Made by a program: the position numbers and the translations under genes. A stretch of DNA of 64,000 nt from a virus, in the IMG/VR virus record IMGVR_UViG_3300032294_001887, positions 1 to 64,000 of that record; one strand, 5' to 3'. Of the stretch, positions 7,836-40,348 are shown one piece after another; the stretch's first letter is position 1; each line of letters opens with the position of its first letter. The notes beneath the pieces are model-generated. The model was not told where the DNA came from. It did no database searches and saw nothing but the letters and a program-made list of their open reading frames with translations.

Positions 7836-7991
7836 ATGGGAAGACCTAAAAAAGAAGAAACCGATAAAAAAATTAAAATTGGTATAACAATAGACCGAGA
7901 ACTTTATAGTTTAATTAAAAAAGACAACTTAAAACCTTCCCGTATCATTGAAAAATTGGTAAGAGAATATTATGGAAACAAAGATTTGTAG
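7836..7991 (+). CDS. Small ribbon-helix-helix-like protein, cassette 1
   Basis: The 51-aa protein begins MGRPKKEETDKKIKIGITID and continues through a predicted strand (KIGITID) and two short helices (RELYSLIKKD; KPSRIIEKLVREYY). This is the size and layout of Arc/CopG/MetJ-type RHH DNA-binding proteins. It overlaps the HNH endonuclease gene by 20 bp in another frame. A near-twin (MGRKKKEEIEKKVKIGVSVD) precedes the second HNH gene at 39589, which argues strongly that this short frame is a real gene. A repressor of its own cassette, or a DNA-targeting partner of the endonuclease, is an inference. Confidence 0.75.
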   Translation: MGRPKKEETDKKIKIGITIDRELYSLIKKDNLKPSRIIEKLVREYYGNKDL

Positions 7992-8625
7992 TAAATGTAG
8001 GGAAGATAAAAATATTTGTAATTTTTATAAAAATAGAAATGAGTGTAAGGAGTGTAAAAAGAAAAAATCTATGTTAGATTATAATTCTAATAAAGAAAAG
8101 TATAGAACATCCCAATTATTATATAGAGAAAGTAATAAGGAAACAATAAATGAGAAAAACCGAATTTATTATTATAATAATCACACCATATTAAGAGAAA
8201 AACAAAAAAAATATAGGGATGAAAATATCGAAAAAGAGAAGGAAAGAAATAAATCATGGAGAATTAATAATAAAAATTTAATTAATAATTATAGAGATAG
8301 TAGGAGAAAAAATGAGCCATTATATAAGATAACAGAAAATATTAGGAGAAGAATCAATAAATTCTTTAAATCGAAAAATATTGAGAAAAATAATAAAACA
8401 TTTGATATTGTAGGGTGTTCTCCCGAATTTCTTAAAGAATATATTGAAAATAAATTTACCGAAGGGATGTCTTGGGTTTTAATGGGTAAACATATTCATA
8501 TAGACCATATTATACCTTTATCTTCTGCTAAGACAAAAGAAGATATTTATAAACTTTGCCACTACACAAATTTACAACCTTTATGGGCTGAGGATAACTT
8601 AAAAAAAAGTTCTAAAATTATCTAA
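7972..8625 (+). CDS. HNH homing-type endonuclease, cassette 1
   Basis: The 217-aa protein has an N-terminal zinc-ribbon pattern (METKICSKC, then CKEC), a long Lys/Asn/Glu-rich helical middle, and a C-terminal HNH domain: FDIVGCSPEFLKEYIE, then HIDHIIPLSSAKT, HYTNLQPLWAEDN. The HIDH pair, the NLQ and the final N supply the catalytic and metal residues expected for HNH. It is a free-standing enzyme between intact genes, like T4 intergenic homing endonucleases. The C-terminal half is highly similar to the HNH protein at 39731-40348. The start lies inside the RHH gene. The stop overlaps the convergent minus-strand gene by 4 bp. Confidence 0.9.
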   Translation: METKICSKCREDKNICNFYKNRNECKECKKKKSMLDYNSNKEKYRTSQLLYRESNKETINEKNRIYYYNNHTILREKQKKYRDENIEKEKERNKSWRINNKNLINNYRDSRRKNEPLYKITENIRRRINKFFKSKNIEKNNKTFDIVGCSPEFLKEYIENKFTEGMSWVLMGKHIHIDHIIPLSSAKTKEDIYKLCHYTNLQPLWAEDNLKKSSKII

Positions 8626-8960: not shown

Positions 8961-10082
8961 TTAAATTACATATATTTGACGAGGCATTGCTCTGAATTTC
9001 ATTTGTTTGTTTAAGTTCTCGGCAATTAACGCTTCTTTTTCCATAACTTTTTCAGGTCTTAACCTTGTTAAAAAACCTTCAGGGCCAGTAAGTTCTTCCA
9101 ATAATTTTGTTTTCTCATCTTTACCCTCAGTTAATAAACTTGTATAATCCATCGTGATTTCGGAATCAGGCGTTTTTAAATTACCACTATATTTTCCTCT
9201 AACTCTACCTAAGGTTTCTTTCACATATGCGGTAAACCATCTTCTAACCCATTGTTTCGCAGGAACATTTAAATCAGTCCAAGTTAATTCCTCAAGTGGA
9301 ACATCGCTAGGTAATTTAATTACATCAGGATTATTTTTTAAACAATCCGCTCTACTATCAGGTGTTGTTTCGTAATACCAATACCAAACCGTTTTACCAA
9401 CGTAACTACTATAAGAATTCCAATTAAATTGACTACCAGGTGCGTTATATAACTGTAAATCTTTTTTACCATCAGGTAATGCTGTGATTCTATAAGTTAA
9501 AGAACCGCCAAGAATTCTATTTAAAATGTTTGATTGTTGCATTCTAATTAGATAGTCAAACCCTGACATCATAAAATAAGAACCTTGATATCCCATTTGA
9601 GCAAATCCAGCTTCACTTGCACCAAGACCTATACCTCCAAATCCACCAATACCACCCATACCAAATGCGGTAATAGGTCGATTACTAAACCATAACACTT
9701 CGTTAATTTCACGGCCAGCAGGTATTTCGTAGTTTTGTTTATTCTCTTCAAGAACTATGTAATCTTTTTTTAGAACCCAAGGTCCTTGAGCTTGAAGACC
9801 AACGATTTTAGAATATGAATATGAAAATTGTTGTTCAAAATCCATAGTTCTTGTTATAAGTGCGTTTGCAACTGATTTTTCAGTCATGTTCAAATTAACT
9901 AAATTAACCCATTGACTATCAATTAACCAATTAAGTATGTATTGTTCATAATCTTGAATAGATAGTTCCATTAATGAATCCATCATTTCATCCTCAATCT
10001 CAACACTCCTTATCGGTGCACCTAATAAGTGTTTAACTCTTGTATAAATTTTTGACCTTTCTGGTTCTGGAATAACTGCCAT
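8961..10082 (-). CDS. 13: Neck protein, T4 gp13-like
   Basis: The 373-aa protein opens with an Arg/Lys helix and LLGAPIRSVEIEDEMMDSLM, much like the 'k..LGaPv..vEl.d.qi...i' start of T4-type gp13 neck proteins. The C-terminal part has KQWVRRWFTAYVKETLGRVR followed by GKYSG and a helical 'LTEGKDEKTKLLEELTG', the arrangement seen at the end of gp13-family proteins. A glycine-rich insertion (FGMGGIGGFGGIGLGASEAG) interrupts the middle. gp13 sits at the head-tail junction with gp14. It is transcribed on the minus strand from a TATTTATA motif and is followed 3 bases later by the 111-aa gene. The assignment rests on pattern and not on a search. Confidence 0.6.
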   Translation of the reverse strand: MAVIPEPERSKIYTRVKHLLGAPIRSVEIEDEMMDSLMELSIQDYEQYILNWLIDSQWVNLVNLNMTEKSVANALITRTMDFEQQFSYSYSKIVGLQAQGPWVLKKDYIVLEENKQNYEIPAGREINEVLWFSNRPITAFGMGGIGGFGGIGLGASEAGFAQMGYQGSYFMMSGFDYLIRMQQSNILNRILGGSLTYRITALPDGKKDLQLYNAPGSQFNWNSYSSYVGKTVWYWYYETTPDSRADCLKNNPDVIKLPSDVPLEELTWTDLNVPAKQWVRRWFTAYVKETLGRVRGKYSGNLKTPDSEITMDYTSLLTEGKDEKTKLLEELTGPEGFLTRLRPEKVMEKEALIAENLNKQMKFRAMPRQIYVI

Positions 10083-10118: not shown

Positions 10119-11651
10119 CTATTGTATATTATATAACAAAGAATCTTTAGGAAAGACAAAATTACCTTTCACAATTTTTGGTTTTCTATTGAAAATTAAT
10201 ACATTTTTTCCTTTTTGGAAAATCATTAAATCTGTATTATAAATCTTAACACTTGCTGTCCCTTCCAAAGTAATCCCATCTTCAGATTCCACCATGTTTC
10301 TAAATGGTTTAATCTGTGCGGTATATTTTTGACCATCCTTGGTTAACTCTAAATCAATTCCTTGTATTGCATCTTTTTTACTACCCAACTCACCAACCAC
10401 CTGAACTTTGGCTTGTTTACCGAAAAATCTTTTAAGTATTGATGCAGTTATTTCTTCTCTTTTAGAGCCTGCCTTATCTTTTTCAGTTAAAGTTCTCAAT
10501 AAATTATGAAGAGTCGTACTATCTGTATCAAATATTCTATATTTGAAATAGTCAATTGTTTTAACAAATCTCTCAACTTCTTTCCTTTGTTCCGAAGGAG
10601 TTTTATCCATGAAATTAATAGGTTTTTTGCCCGGTATTGTTGCAATCACTTGATTCAAATCTTTTAATAAAATACAAAATGCAGTATAATTCGTATTCAA
10701 TTTATTAATTACTGACCTACCCGGACCTTCAAGATTATAAACGCCAGGTAATTGGTTATTTTCAAGCTTTGTAATATAGTTTTCGGAAAACACTTCTTTC
10801 ATGATTTTATTAATACCATTCATGTAAGTCCACTTAACATCCGAATTTACATTGAATAACATTCTGTAAAACTCATTCTCGGATTGAGAACACATTTCGG
10901 ACTTTCCCTCACTTAAAACTTGTTTCATTTTAGTTGATTCCGCCAATTTAGTTTCAATTTTCATTTCATACATCTTACTAACGAAATCCCAATTAACAAC
11001 TTTCCAAAAGTTTGTGATGTATTCATCTCTTTTATTTTTATACTTTAGGTAATATGCGTGTTCCCATAAGTCTAAACCTAGTAATGGGAATCCACCACCT
11101 TCGATTACATTCATTAATGGATTGTCTTGATTTGGAGTAGACATAATCTTTAAAGTATTTTTGGAAGTTAAAACCAACCATACCCATCCGGACCCGAAGC
11201 GTTCTTTGGCTTGTTTTTCAAATTCTTTTTTGAAATTACTAAAAGTTCCCCATTGTTTGGTTATTTTCTTATAAAGTTCACCATCCAATTTTTTTGGTTC
11301 AGGTGTCAACATATTCCAAAACAATGCGTGGTTAAATGCTCCACCGGCATTATTTCTAATGGTTTTGTCGAAACGGCTGATTGTTTTAATTATTTTTTCC
11401 AAATCTAAATCACCATATTTCTTTTTTGATAATGCGGCGTTTAATTTGTCTACATAACCTTTGTAATGTTTATTGTAGTGGAAGTTCATTGTCTCTGCGT
11501 CAATAAATGTCTTCAAGGCTGAATAGGCGTAAGGTAATTTTTCTATCCCTATTTTTTTCATTTCTGTAATCAACAACTCTTTTTCTTTTGTAACTTGTGA
11601 TTCAAGTATTTGTGACTCAAGTTGTTGGATTTTCTCTTGTGTTTTTTTCAT
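10119..11651 (-). CDS. Mn/Fe superoxide dismutase fused to a nuclease-like C-terminal region
   Basis: Residues about 38-232 of 510 form a complete Fe/Mn-type superoxide dismutase. Metal ligands are seen as H58 (NFHYNKHYKGYV), H108 (NNAGGAFNHALFW), D194 and H198 (LDLWEHAYYLKY). Gly104 four residues before H108 and Gln175 in STPNQDNPLM follow the manganese/cambialistic type rather than the iron type. FGSGWVWLVL and the VVNWDFV end are also standard. Residues 1-37 are a short charged helix. Residues 233-510 are unrelated. Within them a helix (REEITASILKRFFG), then GIDLEL with D433 and AQIKPF with Q446-x-K448 resemble a PD-(D/E)xK nuclease core with Gln in place of Glu. The SOD should dismutate superoxide; why it is joined to this domain is unknown. 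The promoter motif is at 11673. Confidence 0.88.
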   Translation of the reverse strand: MKKTQEKIQQLESQILESQVTKEKELLITEMKKIGIEKLPYAYSALKTFIDAETMNFHYNKHYKGYVDKLNAALSKKKYGDLDLEKIIKTISRFDKTIRNNAGGAFNHALFWNMLTPEPKKLDGELYKKITKQWGTFSNFKKEFEKQAKERFGSGWVWLVLTSKNTLKIMSTPNQDNPLMNVIEGGGFPLLGLDLWEHAYYLKYKNKRDEYITNFWKVVNWDFVSKMYEMKIETKLAESTKMKQVLSEGKSEMCSQSENEFYRMLFNVNSDVKWTYMNGINKIMKEVFSENYITKLENNQLPGVYNLEGPGRSVINKLNTNYTAFCILLKDLNQVIATIPGKKPINFMDKTPSEQRKEVERFVKTIDYFKYRIFDTDSTTLHNLLRTLTEKDKAGSKREEITASILKRFFGKQAKVQVVGELGSKKDAIQGIDLELTKDGQKYTAQIKPFRNMVESEDGITLEGTASVKIYNTDLMIFQKGKNVLIFNRKPKIVKGNFVFPKDSLLYNIQ

Positions 11652-11672
11652 AATTTTGAATTATCCATTGTA

Positions 11673-11680
11673 TATAAATA
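11673..11680 (-). promoter_or_regulatory. TATTTATA motif (minus strand), upstream of the SOD fusion
   Basis: TATTTATA on the coding strand, 21 bases before the ATG of the SOD fusion gene. Confidence 0.5.
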
Positions 11681-11692
11681 ATCCGTATTTCG

Positions 11693-13444
11693 TTATTTTC
11701 TCAAATGATTAATTCTTTTTAGAATTTCTTCTGCCGCATCGGCAGGGTTTTGATTGTCCCCCATGACAGTTGCAATCACTTGTTTTTTGTTGTTTAAAAT
11801 ATCATAGATGATTCCCTCAATTGTATTTTCGAAGATAGGGTAGTAAACTAAAACATTATTTTTTTGACCATAACGATAACTTCTATCTTCGGCTTGTGCG
11901 TGGTCTGAAGGTAAAAATGATAAATCGTTGAATATTGCAGCTTCACCGGCAGTTAAGGTAATTCCGGTTCCGGCCGCCTTTATGTTCCCAACAAAAACTT
12001 TAATCTTTTCATTTTCTTGGAATTGGTCAACACTATATTGTCTTTCGTGTTGAGACATTGACCCATCAAGTTTAACTGCTGTTTTACCAAAATGTTCTAC
12101 AATTTTATTTAATGAATCGGTAAAATTACAAAAGATGATAACTTTTTTTCCTTGCTCGATAATATTCTCAGCAATTTCAATTGTTTGTTGTATTTTTTCT
12201 TCAGCAATAATTTGTCTTACTTTTGTTAACTTTGAAAATTGAACAGTTAAAGATTTTGACTCTTCAGGATTCTTGTCATACCAATCATAATATTCACCCA
12301 TTACATCTTCATATGCTTTGGATTTCAATTTCAAATAAACCGGAGTTATAATTTTATCAGGTAAGTCAAGAACATTTTCTTTCAATCTTCTCAAAATGGT
12401 TCCCGATGTTCTTTCTCTTAATTCCTCAAGATTTGATGCTCCTGTTATGTTCCAAACTTTTCGGTTTCCGACTTTGAATTGATATCCGGCACAATACCTT
12501 ATCGCATATGCCATCCAGTTTTTACTGACCGGAGAATCAACCAAACTCAATAAATTAAAATAATCCATTGGTCTTGAAGTCATTGGTGTACCAGTTAATA
12601 ACCACAATCTTTCAGTGTTTTTAACAAGGTCGTTAATAAGTTTTGTTCTTTGAGCGGTTGCGTTTTTAATATAGTGAGCTTCATCCACAATCACCAAATC
12701 AAATTTGGAATTAAGAATTAACGACTCCTCTTTATTTTTTGGGTCATGAAAATTTTTGATAATATCATAATTCGCAATTACAAAATCATGTTCGGTTGAG
12801 AAGTTCTTACTTTCGGCAATGAATATTGGTCTATCAGAATAATTTTCAATTTCTCGTTTCCAATTAATCTTCAATGTTGCCGGACAAATAATTAATATTT
12901 TTTTAGACCCAGTTTCCAGTGCTCCGATGATTGTTGAGGTCGTTTTACCCAAACCCATATCGTCAGCCAATATAAATTTTTTATTTTCCAAAAGTTTTTG
13001 GATTGCCTCTTTTTGATGCTCCAATGGAGGTCTATTGGAATATTTTGAATAATCAACTACAACATTTTGAACGGAATTATCTTTTATTATGGCGGCTTTC
13101 GGTAACCAAAAATCGTGGAGTTCCTCATTCTCGAAAACTTTACCCCAAATATGATATGCCTTTTCTTTATCCGCCAATAATTTCTCAACCCAAACTTTTT
13201 GAGGAATTTCAGTGTATAGTTTATCGTCTGCCAATTTTTGAGCAAAATAAGCATCAAGAATCACCCACTTTCTGGCAACCTTTGGTTGTTTGTCGTGGAA
13301 TGAAATTATATAGTCCGATTGGCTCCTTGTAGGGTAAAATTTCTTGTTAATTTGTGACTTACGTCTCAACTCCAACAAATAGTTATTACCACCTTCATAG
13401 GTTTCAAGAATCGTCATTGCTTTTGATTCTAAACTTATTTCCAT
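11693..13444 (-). CDS. SNF2-family DNA-dependent ATPase/helicase
   Basis: The 583-aa protein has an N-terminal region of about 130 residues and then a two-lobed SF2 core. Q-like PPLEHQKEAIQ precedes motif I, DDMGLGKT (161-168). Motif II is VDEAH (DEAH at 254-257) and motif III is LLTGTPMT. In the C-terminal lobe, VIIFCNFTDSL, AGTGITLTAGEAAIFND and DHAQAEDRSYRYGQ correspond to motifs IV-VI of SNF2 proteins. The spacing is compact and SMARCAL1-like. It has no nuclease or bromo/chromo domain. T4 UvsW is also SF2 but not SNF2-like, so this is not an obvious UvsW. A role in fork remodelling, recombination or displacing DNA-bound proteins is inferred. The start faces the plus-strand operon across a 55-bp divergent gap. 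Confidence 0.93.
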   Translation of the reverse strand: MEISLESKAMTILETYEGGNNYLLELRRKSQINKKFYPTRSQSDYIISFHDKQPKVARKWVILDAYFAQKLADDKLYTEIPQKVWVEKLLADKEKAYHIWGKVFENEELHDFWLPKAAIIKDNSVQNVVVDYSKYSNRPPLEHQKEAIQKLLENKKFILADDMGLGKTTSTIIGALETGSKKILIICPATLKINWKREIENYSDRPIFIAESKNFSTEHDFVIANYDIIKNFHDPKNKEESLILNSKFDLVIVDEAHYIKNATAQRTKLINDLVKNTERLWLLTGTPMTSRPMDYFNLLSLVDSPVSKNWMAYAIRYCAGYQFKVGNRKVWNITGASNLEELRERTSGTILRRLKENVLDLPDKIITPVYLKLKSKAYEDVMGEYYDWYDKNPEESKSLTVQFSKLTKVRQIIAEEKIQQTIEIAENIIEQGKKVIIFCNFTDSLNKIVEHFGKTAVKLDGSMSQHERQYSVDQFQENEKIKVFVGNIKAAGTGITLTAGEAAIFNDLSFLPSDHAQAEDRSYRYGQKNNVLVYYPIFENTIEGIIYDILNNKKQVIATVMGDNQNPADAAEEILKRINHLRK

Positions 13445-19320: not shown

Positions 19321-20148
19321 ATGGAAAGACAACTTAAAGAAGGATTTAAACTTGAAGGGACACCAGATATGAAATATTACGCATTCGATTGGGATGATAA
19401 TATTGTTCATATGCCAACTAAAATTATGTTAAAAACTGAAGATGGTGAGGAAATTGGTATGAGTACCGATGACTTTGCAGAGTATAGACATGATTTAGGT
19501 AAAACCCCTGTTCAATATAAAGGAGATACTATTGTCGGTTTTGCGGACAATCCATTTAGAAATTTTAGAACGGAAGGTGACAAAGATTTTTTAGTTGATG
19601 CGATGAGAGCAAAAAAAGGACCGGCATTTGATGACTTTAGAGAAGCAATTAACAATGGGTCTATTTTTTCAATAATTACCGCAAGAGGGCATAATCCTGA
19701 AACCTTAAAACAAGCTATTTATAATTACATTATAAGTGGTTTCAATGGAATAGATAAAAACATGTTAATTAAAAATTTAAAAAAATATAGAACATTTGTG
19801 GATGAAGATGAAATGAGTGACGATGAATTAATTAAATCATATTTAGAGTTAAATAAGTATCACCCTGTTAGTTTTGGTGATGAAGAAGGTGCTGCAAATC
19901 CCGAAGAATTAAAAGTTAAAGCGATGGAAGATTTTGTATCTTATATAAAAGGAATGGCAGGAATACTTAATAAAAGAGCCTTTATTAAAAATGATATCTC
20001 AAATAATTTCATACCAGACATTAGTATTGGTTTTTCAGATGATGATATGAAAAATGTAGAAGTAATGAGTAAACATTTTAAAGATAAACCAGATAATATA
20101 GTTAAGACTTATTCTACTGCTGGAGGTATTAAAAAGTTATATAACTAG
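19321..20148 (+). CDS. HAD-fold protein between sheath and tube genes
   Basis: The 275-aa protein has KYYAFDWDDNIVHMPT near residues 18-33. D23 and D25 form the DxD nucleophile motif I of the haloacid dehalogenase superfamily. IFSIITARGHNPETLKQ, around residue 115-131, gives the motif II Thr and the 'TaR' feature typical of HAD phosphatases and polynucleotide kinase 3'-phosphatases. An acidic HPVSFGDEEG at about residues 180-190 could be the motif IV region. No P-loop kinase domain is present, so it is not a T4 Pnk equivalent. A phosphatase on nucleotides or nucleic acid ends is possible. The position inside the tail cluster is unexplained by function. Confidence 0.75.
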   Translation: MERQLKEGFKLEGTPDMKYYAFDWDDNIVHMPTKIMLKTEDGEEIGMSTDDFAEYRHDLGKTPVQYKGDTIVGFADNPFRNFRTEGDKDFLVDAMRAKKGPAFDDFREAINNGSIFSIITARGHNPETLKQAIYNYIISGFNGIDKNMLIKNLKKYRTFVDEDEMSDDELIKSYLELNKYHPVSFGDEEGAANPEELKVKAMEDFVSYIKGMAGILNKRAFIKNDISNNFIPDISIGFSDDDMKNVEVMSKHFKDKPDNIVKTYSTAGGIKKLYN

Positions 20149-39588: not shown

Positions 39589-39741
39589 ATGGGAAGAAAG
39601 AAAAAAGAAGAAATTGAAAAAAAAGTTAAGATTGGAGTTTCGGTTGACCCCGAGCTTCCACAATACTTTAAAGACAAATCTATTAATCTATCTTCTCTTG
39701 TTAATAAGTTGTTAAAAGAATATATTAAAAATGGAAACTAA
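39589..39741 (+). CDS. Small ribbon-helix-helix-like protein, cassette 2
   Basis: The 50-aa protein MGRKKKEEIEKKVKIGVSVD continues PELPQYFKDKSINLSSLVNK and LLKEYI. It keeps the basic tail, single strand and two helices of its counterpart at 7836, with about half the residues identical by eye. It overlaps the HNH gene by 11 bp in a different frame. Conservation of this short frame in front of both endonuclease genes, while the DNA has diverged, is the best evidence that it is translated. A DNA-binding regulator is likely. Confidence 0.75.
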   Translation: MGRKKKEEIEKKVKIGVSVDPELPQYFKDKSINLSSLVNKLLKEYIKNGN

Positions 39742-40348
39742 AGTTTGTAGTAAATGTTCTGTTGATAAACCACTATTGAAATATAATGTATGTTCTAGAG
39801 TGAAAGATGGGAGGAAAGCTGAATGTAGAGAGTGTCAAAGACTTGGAACTAAAGAATATAAGTTTAAAAATAAGGAAAAAATAAAAGAATATAATTCTAA
39901 ATGGAATTCCGAAAACAAATCCTATTATCAAGAATATCGTAAAATATGGGAGGTTAAAAATTATGATAAAGTTTTAGAAAAAAGAAAAAGATTCAAAGAA
40001 AAAAATCCTAGTTATATTAACAATTATAATAAACAAAGGAAAAAAGAAGATATCTTATTCAGGCTTATATCTGATATGAGAAATTCTGTTAATCGATACC
40101 TGAAATATAGGTCAAAAAAAACTTTCGAAATCGTTGGATGTACTCCGGAATTTCTTAAGGAACATTTAGAAAAACAATTTGTTGATGGCATGACTTGGGA
40201 GAATAGGGGTGAATGGCATATTGACCACAAAATTCCATTATCTTCTGCGAAAACAGAAGAAGAACTTTACAAGTTGTGTCATTATACAAACCTTCAACCA
40301 TTATGGGCTGAAGAAAATTTGAAAAAAGGTAACAAAATTATTGTCTAA
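39731..40348 (+). CDS. HNH homing-type endonuclease, cassette 2
   Basis: The 205-aa protein has the same order as the one at 7972: zinc ribbon (METKVCSKC ... CREC), Lys-rich helical middle, 'FEIVGCTPEFLKEHLE', then HIDHKIPLSSAKTEEELY and HYTNLQPLWAEENLKK. The middle region has diverged much more than the two ends, as expected when the ends carry zinc-binding and catalysis and the middle contacts a specific target. It lies between intact uvsX and the RNase H gene, so it is an intergenic homing enzyme and not intron-borne. Confidence 0.9.
   Translation: METKVCSKCSVDKPLLKYNVCSRVKDGRKAECRECQRLGTKEYKFKNKEKIKEYNSKWNSENKSYYQEYRKIWEVKNYDKVLEKRKRFKEKNPSYINNYNKQRKKEDILFRLISDMRNSVNRYLKYRSKKTFEIVGCTPEFLKEHLEKQFVDGMTWENRGEWHIDHKIPLSSAKTEEELYKLCHYTNLQPLWAEENLKKGNKIIV

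Follow-up and report, generated by a model that had tools for sequence, protein, structure and literature searches.

A superoxide dismutase and a putative PD-(D/E)xK nuclease encoded in one open reading frame of uncultured T4-like phages, with two predicted prohead-protease-type sites in the linker

The window considered here is the whole stretch of 64,000 nucleotides that was analyzed, taken from the 74.8-kb viral record IMGVR_UViG_3300032294_001887. Between a gene for a neck protein and a gene for a SNF2-family ATPase, its minus strand carries a single open reading frame (ORF) whose product combines a Mn-type superoxide dismutase (SOD) with a unit resembling PD-(D/E)xK nucleases. This architecture is well supported and can be stated with high confidence. 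The parts of the gene and its two conserved neighbors are listed below; the vertical bar in a protease-type site marks the predicted cut.

10119..11651 (-): SOD-nuclease fusion gene, 510 amino acids with an ATG start; an ORF of ~510 amino acids is present in all intact relatives
11547..11651 (-): extra N-terminal helix before the SOD domain, residues 1-35; a helix is predicted with low confidence for residues 2-33
10962..11546 (-): Mn-type Fe/Mn superoxide dismutase domain, residues 36-230; identified by PF00081/PF02777, matches to MnSODs in the PDB, fold Z and invariant ligands
10902..10949 (-): predicted flexible linker joining the two enzymes, residues 235-250; pLDDT < 50 in the full-length model
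10935..10946 (-): predicted prohead-protease-type site 1, LAE|S, residues 236-239; pattern in 32 of 32 sequences, residue 237 free
10905..10916 (-): predicted prohead-protease-type site 2, LSE|G, residues 246-249; pattern in 32 of 32 sequences, located inside MKQVLSE|G, a stretch that resembles an internal capsid-targeting sequence
10476..10901 (-): helical subdomain of the C-terminal unit, residues 251-392; conserved N..NT...F motif, as in a standalone homologue from a huge phage
10122..10475 (-): PD-(D/E)xK nuclease-like core, residues 393-510; identified by fold search, with invariant E399, D433 and Q446-x-K448
8961..10082 (-): neck/head-completion protein, conserved downstream neighbor; PHROG 211 and synteny
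11693..13444 (-): SNF2-family ATPase, conserved upstream neighbor; domain match and synteny

Both Pfam domains of Fe/Mn superoxide dismutases are found far above cut-off in the N-terminal part of the protein, Sod_Fe_N at residues 37-115 (E 1.5e-23) and Sod_Fe_C at residues 124-226 (E 2.7e-40). The original prediction had named four metal ligands (H58, H108, D194 and H198) and a Gly/Gln second sphere; all of them lie where they had been placed and are invariant in 32 homologues, the Mn-type second-sphere pair being G104/Q175. H62, Y66, W196 and E197 align with the PDB entry 6gsc and are invariant in the same 32 homologues. The solved structures nearest to the SOD part are bacterial MnSODs, the first of which is 6gsc (E 1e-59), the MnSOD of Sphingobacterium, and the full-length model reaches a Z of about 15 against Fe/MnSODs in a fold comparison. 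The phage domain has in common with 6gsc and with E. coli MnSOD (1vew) both Pfam domains, the four ligands, G104, Q175, H62, Y66 and the WEHAYYL dimer segment, whereas the fusion adds a helix of 35 residues in front and, via the linker with its protease-type sites, a nuclease-like unit of ~260 residues behind. Nothing in its sequence suggests decay of the SOD half, for which an active dimer is expected. Fe/Mn SODs are also encoded by two other large phages, Vibrio phage 2.275.O (AUS02630) and Pseudomonas phage Callisto (WMI31805). Unlike the fusion, these proteins consist of the SOD only (about 182-189 amino acids), are about 28-30% identical to the SOD of the fusion, and are encoded by genes that do not adjoin a neck gene.

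The C-terminal unit was modeled with AlphaFold2 from 22 homologues (pLDDT 87.5, pTM 0.81). When the model was compared with the PDB, residues ~392-510 matched archaeal (Archaeoglobus) Hjc, 2wcw, with a Z of 8.4 over 101 residues at 3.4 A, followed by I-Ssp6803I (Z 7.2), the nuclease domain of SPARDA (7.2), NhoI (6.9), and then RecU and others. The leading rows are almost all PD-(D/E)xK nucleases, most of them resolvases or restriction enzymes, which bears out the nuclease-related fold that had been proposed for this half. Foldseek returned I-Ssp6803I as the top match (E 0.019, probability 1.0). These Z values, with 8.4 as the best, are moderate, and the case rests on the agreement of fold and motif. 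Within the core, a Glu in helix 1 is followed by an Asp and then by QxK, the order that PD-(D/E)xK requires. The D433 ... Q446-x-K448 arrangement of the original prediction is present and invariant in 34 representatives sharing <95% identity, among which the C-terminal unit as a whole drops to 52% identity. E399 is a further motif residue that the original prediction had missed, and it is invariant in the same set. The core fold and the order E ... D ... QxK are shared with Hjc, I-Ssp6803I, NhoI and the SPARDA nuclease domain, whereas identity to these nucleases is about 8-14% and the phage unit has its own helical subdomain and the fusion to SOD. Identity to Hjc is about 8-16% (11-12% in the best rows), a level at which the substrate of the unit cannot be read from the fold.

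No curated nuclease or defence family in Pfam, NCBIfam or PADLOC exceeded its cut-off for the C-terminal unit; weak sub-threshold matches were obtained to EcoO109I (0.017), DUF6602 and the PADLOC family PD_DExK (0.0024), of which EcoO109I and PD_DExK point toward the PD-(D/E)xK group. Because such families do not span the whole superfamily, this miss does not contradict the fold, and naming stops at the superfamily level. A sequence-profile search of the PDB with the unit gave a single chance match. For the helical part, MC4 (ABC-3C) and Maf were considered and rejected, since these matches are weak, sub-threshold and absent from the standalone homologue described below. From the model and the motif, the C-terminal half is expected to be a putative metal-dependent nuclease of the PD-(D/E)xK superfamily, with a fold that suggests DNA as the substrate.

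The C-terminal unit also occurs outside the fusion. A 735-kb uncultured phage encodes an unannotated standalone homologue of 290 amino acids (LR756501.1, 692651-693520; L226:5950-6822), which aligns with the unit in hhalign at a probability of 97 (E 8e-11, 222 columns) and in an HMM search at E 2.8e-17. At about 20-28% identity, this protein retains the equivalents of E399, D433, Q446 and K448 and also has the N..NT...F motif of the helical part. The whole unit is contained in the model of a 1113-amino-acid marine-phage protein (A0A8D9CCA0, TM-score 0.79), and the model of the UniProt entry A0A6J5L953 aligns across all of it (36% identity, TM-score 0.82 by query). Since the unit occurs alone and the other phage SODs examined are SOD only, the C-terminal unit is, as judged from sequence, a separate module, and the fusion gene joins two independent modules. 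Searches with degenerate patterns, which distant homologues may escape, found no bacterial homologue of the unit in genome contigs. No convincing match was found in the cultured T4-like phages immuto and Mel-JY01 or in other SOD phages, where Callisto gave a match of 35 residues (E 0.005). In single-protein searches for other architectures, a divergent member (L071) recovered only itself, and the standalone homologue found none.

The fusion claimed in the original prediction recurs in dozens of independent contigs when homologues are searched for: one scan of IMG/VR yielded 80 loci, and a second, for which only the C-terminal part was used, yielded 48. The relatives are about 69-99% identical, nearly all have the ~510-amino-acid ORF, and every long ORF among them contains both halves. 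An assembly error or chimera at residue 233 is ruled out by the identical ORF in dozens of independent contigs. In one record (L119/L186), the C-terminal frame of the fusion and the SNF2 gene are split over two frames, for which a sequencing error or decay is possible. The order SNF2 > SOD-nuclease > neck is held wherever the contig extends, apart from HNH insertions, and each of nine long contigs has exactly one copy of the fusion. Both neighbors had been named correctly from the start, the neck protein at 8961-10082 and the SNF2 ATPase at 11693-13444. The few database matches of the neck protein include the head completion protein of Flavobacterium phage immuto; because of this match, and because the closest SOD is that of Sphingobacterium, a host among the Bacteroidota is likely though unproven.

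Two features of the wider gene cluster can be noted. HNH/endonuclease VII-like proteins, probably homing endonucleases, are encoded at positions 7972-8625 and 39731-40348 of the window and in L013-L015, L002 and L039; they are inserted at variable positions of the cluster and, in some relatives, directly between the SNF2 gene and the fusion gene. Downstream of the baseplate genes, positions 62000-74767 of the record (L187) encode very long low-complexity repeats of the SSGTSG type and a protein with a repeated NQIVTFNPSIALPT unit, which are probably fibre proteins.

Two further elements lie just before the start codon of the fusion.

11673..11680 (-): TATTTATA box, putative late promoter element, 29 nt upstream of the ATG of the fusion
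11658..11684 (-): inverted repeat GGATTAT ... ATAATTC/ATAATCC around TATTTATA; one G-T mismatch between the arms in the copy of the window

The TATTTATA box is found 23-29 nt upstream of the fusion start in 29 of 31 relatives. Its other occurrences in the window, again on the coding strand, precede the starts of the neck gene and several tail genes by 11-37 nt (genes at 8961-10082, 21742, 23640, 28664, 46707, 49110 and 58240). The late-type promoter motif of the original prediction is thus a real and conserved box, but, read along the coding strand, it corresponds to the T4 late consensus TATAAATA in reverse complement. From its recurrent placement, TATTTATA looks like the late promoter element of this phage lineage. 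The arms of the inverted repeat are retained in the relatives while the loop shortens from 13 to 5-7 nt, and the repeat could act as an operator, or form an RNA hairpin, immediately before the start codon.

The linker between the two halves comprises 16 residues (235-250) with pLDDT < 50 in the full-length model, one of five such stretches, the others being residues 15-24, 26-28, 34-42 and 76-83. The pattern [LIMVF]xE[AGST] is present in 32 of 32 sequences at exactly two columns of the 510-residue alignment, and both columns are in the linker. Site 1 (236-239) reads LxE|S/T and site 2 (246-249) reads [LIM]xE|G/S/A; the residue before the Glu is free in both, and the two sites are 10 residues apart. 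When seven control sets drawn from these loci (SNF2, neck, the SOD part, DNA polymerase and three small proteins) were put through this column test, two of 2748 columns fitted. Between two relatives, the pattern [LIM]xE[AGS] is shared at 42 places across 31,190 aligned residues; these include several sites in gp23, a scaffold-like protein and the protease, as well as some in non-head proteins. The pattern is short, and since the linker sites were noticed after the fact, no formal probability is attached to these counts; two protease-type sites in one linker by chance nevertheless looks unlikely.

Prohead proteases of the S77 type cut after Glu behind a short motif (PMC9026906), and gp21 of T4 trims 65 residues off gp23 and short N-terminal peptides off internal proteins (PMC9958956). 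With their conserved motif, which fits the T4-gp21-type pattern [LI]xE|small, and their predicted accessibility, the two linker sites look like targets of such a protease. The capsid-targeted proteins of T4 that are processed by gp21, IPI-III and Alt, are similar to the fusion in having a short stretch that ends in hydrophobic-x-Glu followed by a small residue, and in being encoded by late genes of a T4-like phage with an S77 protease. In contrast, the T4 stretches are N-terminal, whereas the stretch of the fusion, a putative packaging signal, is located between two enzyme domains.

The relatives encode proteins that such processing would involve. An S77 prohead protease (PF03420) is found in the relatives G001, G002 and G008 (E 1e-23 to 1e-26), and the relatives also encode gp23. 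Around residue 60 this gp23 carries FLINE|A or YLINE|A, a position that compares with the 65 residues of the propeptide in T4 gp23. This gp23 site is kept in all four contigs that reach that end. Because gp23 and the S77 prohead protease are encoded, the relatives can be regarded as T4-like; both genes were found in the relatives and not in the 74.8-kb record itself. A parallel to the linker is found elsewhere in the window.

19321..20148 (+): HAD-like enzyme with the N terminus MERQLKE|GF, a comparison case for the packaging idea

The gene for this enzyme, assigned as HAD-like by its FDWDDN sequence motif only and with no Pfam match, sits between those for the tail sheath and tube. Its N terminus has [LIF]xE|G in 16 of 16 relatives, mostly as MKxxLxE|G, which makes it a candidate for a second packaged enzyme. 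The linker sequence MKQVLSE|G of the fusion resembles this N terminus. It is a reasonable inference from the sequences that the nuclease once started at the linker Met with a capsid-targeting sequence of its own and that the SOD was later added in front. In a 182-kb relative (G001, L196-L205), many proteins begin with a sequence like MK...[LI]xE|A/G, for example those at 129480, 133936, 148191, 154798 and 177076, which gives the impression that capsid targeting extends to a large set of proteins.

The reading preferred here, which is held tentatively, is that the gene may encode a late two-enzyme precursor that is packaged in the capsid and cut in the prohead. The precursor would be expressed from the late promoter together with the SNF2 ATPase and the neck protein and would enter the prohead core, where a protease of the T4-gp21 type (S77) would cut the linker after E238 and/or E248. 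After cutting, the SOD and the nuclease would be separate proteins within the head, and both enzymes would stay near the packaged genome and be delivered with it. The SOD would clear superoxide, either that which harms the DNA of the virion or that which arises early in infection, and the nuclease would cut host or branched DNA. A free nuclease in a DNA-filled head would need restraint, which could come from structure specificity, a missing metal or modified phage DNA. The earlier suggestion that the protein may be packaged gains new and independent support from the conserved prohead-protease-like sites in the joint; packaging itself, along with cutting, both activities, delivery and the nuclease target, is what we infer. 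Nothing was found in support of the redox-gated cleavage of DNA that had also been suggested. A bolder form of the preferred reading is possible and more doubtful. It describes an antioxidant and DNA-cutting polyprotein that would be split by the head protease in the capsid to give equal amounts of the two enzymes per virion, with the linker as a relic of the capsid-targeting sequence (MKQVLSE|G) that the nuclease once had at its own N terminus; the linker would now pull the SOD into the head too.

The main rival describes a permanently joined, cytosolic late enzyme and is considered rather unlikely. Its nuclease would be a Hjc-like branched-DNA endonuclease that readies replicated DNA for packaging, the role of gp49 in T4, while the SOD dimer would bring two nuclease domains together as the dimer on which Hjc-type enzymes depend, and would shield the replication/packaging site from superoxide. 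The best fold match is indeed archaeal Hjc and resolvases or restriction enzymes fill most of the leading rows, but an identity to Hjc of about 8-16% means that the fold does not give the substrate. In its favor, searches of the relatives recovered neither RuvC nor RusA, nor any Endonuclease VII (PF02945) that exceeded the cut-off; a conserved HNH protein (phrog_1035; G001:151461-151949, G002:135271-135759) could, however, be the resolvase. A joined enzyme of this kind is consistent with the single copy in each of the nine long contigs and with a position adjoining the SNF2 ATPase and neck genes, yet it leaves the two protease-type sites in a flexible linker unexplained, and the invariant catalytic residues of the SOD exceed the needs of a scaffold.

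A second alternative is improbable. It takes the SOD as a normal auxiliary enzyme that shields the infected cell at a late stage and that became joined by chance to a nuclease for breaking down host DNA; the two activities would be unrelated and neither enzyme would be packaged. Free SOD genes in Vibrio phage 2.275.O and Pseudomonas phage Callisto count in its favor, as does the proposal that SOD, found among viral genes, acts as a buffer against oxidative stress when viruses infect Microcystis (PMC12542629). Had the fusion arisen by chance, its splitting or loss would be expected in some homologues, whereas it is kept in essentially all homologues found, at one fixed place by the neck gene, and the linker sites are again left unexplained. 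It is very improbable that the C-terminal half is a non-nuclease relative of the fold, DNA-binding or structural, serving to anchor the SOD on DNA or on the head. The idea draws on the lack of a curated nuclease family above cut-off and on the replacement of E by Q in the (E/Q)xK motif, but QxK is found in active PD-(D/E)xK enzymes of the Mrr type, and E399, D433, Q446 and K448 are all invariant despite the drop of the region to 52% identity and persist in the standalone homologue at about 20-28% identity.

No published description of a phage SOD-nuclease fusion was found in the literature searched. The original prediction, which knew of no described fusion, therefore holds for papers, but the database entry A0A6J5L953 (uncultured Caudovirales phage, 501 amino acids, named superoxide dismutase) appears to have the same architecture. 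Its annotation covers the SOD only, and the nuclease part and linker sites are unremarked in anything found. Each half of the protein belongs to an established class of enzyme; the fusion itself, its constant position next to the neck gene and the linker with protease-type sites appear to be undescribed in the papers searched.

Giant viruses of eukaryotes have been reported to contain SOD in their virions (PMC9405923). If the linker of the fusion is cut in the prohead, SOD would also be carried inside the heads of phages, and the gene would show how a polyprotein can bring equal amounts of two enzymes into the capsid. A signature of the linker type would provide a simple way to search uncultured T4-like phages for packaged enzymes by sequence, and the reason for which phages carry SOD becomes open to direct testing.
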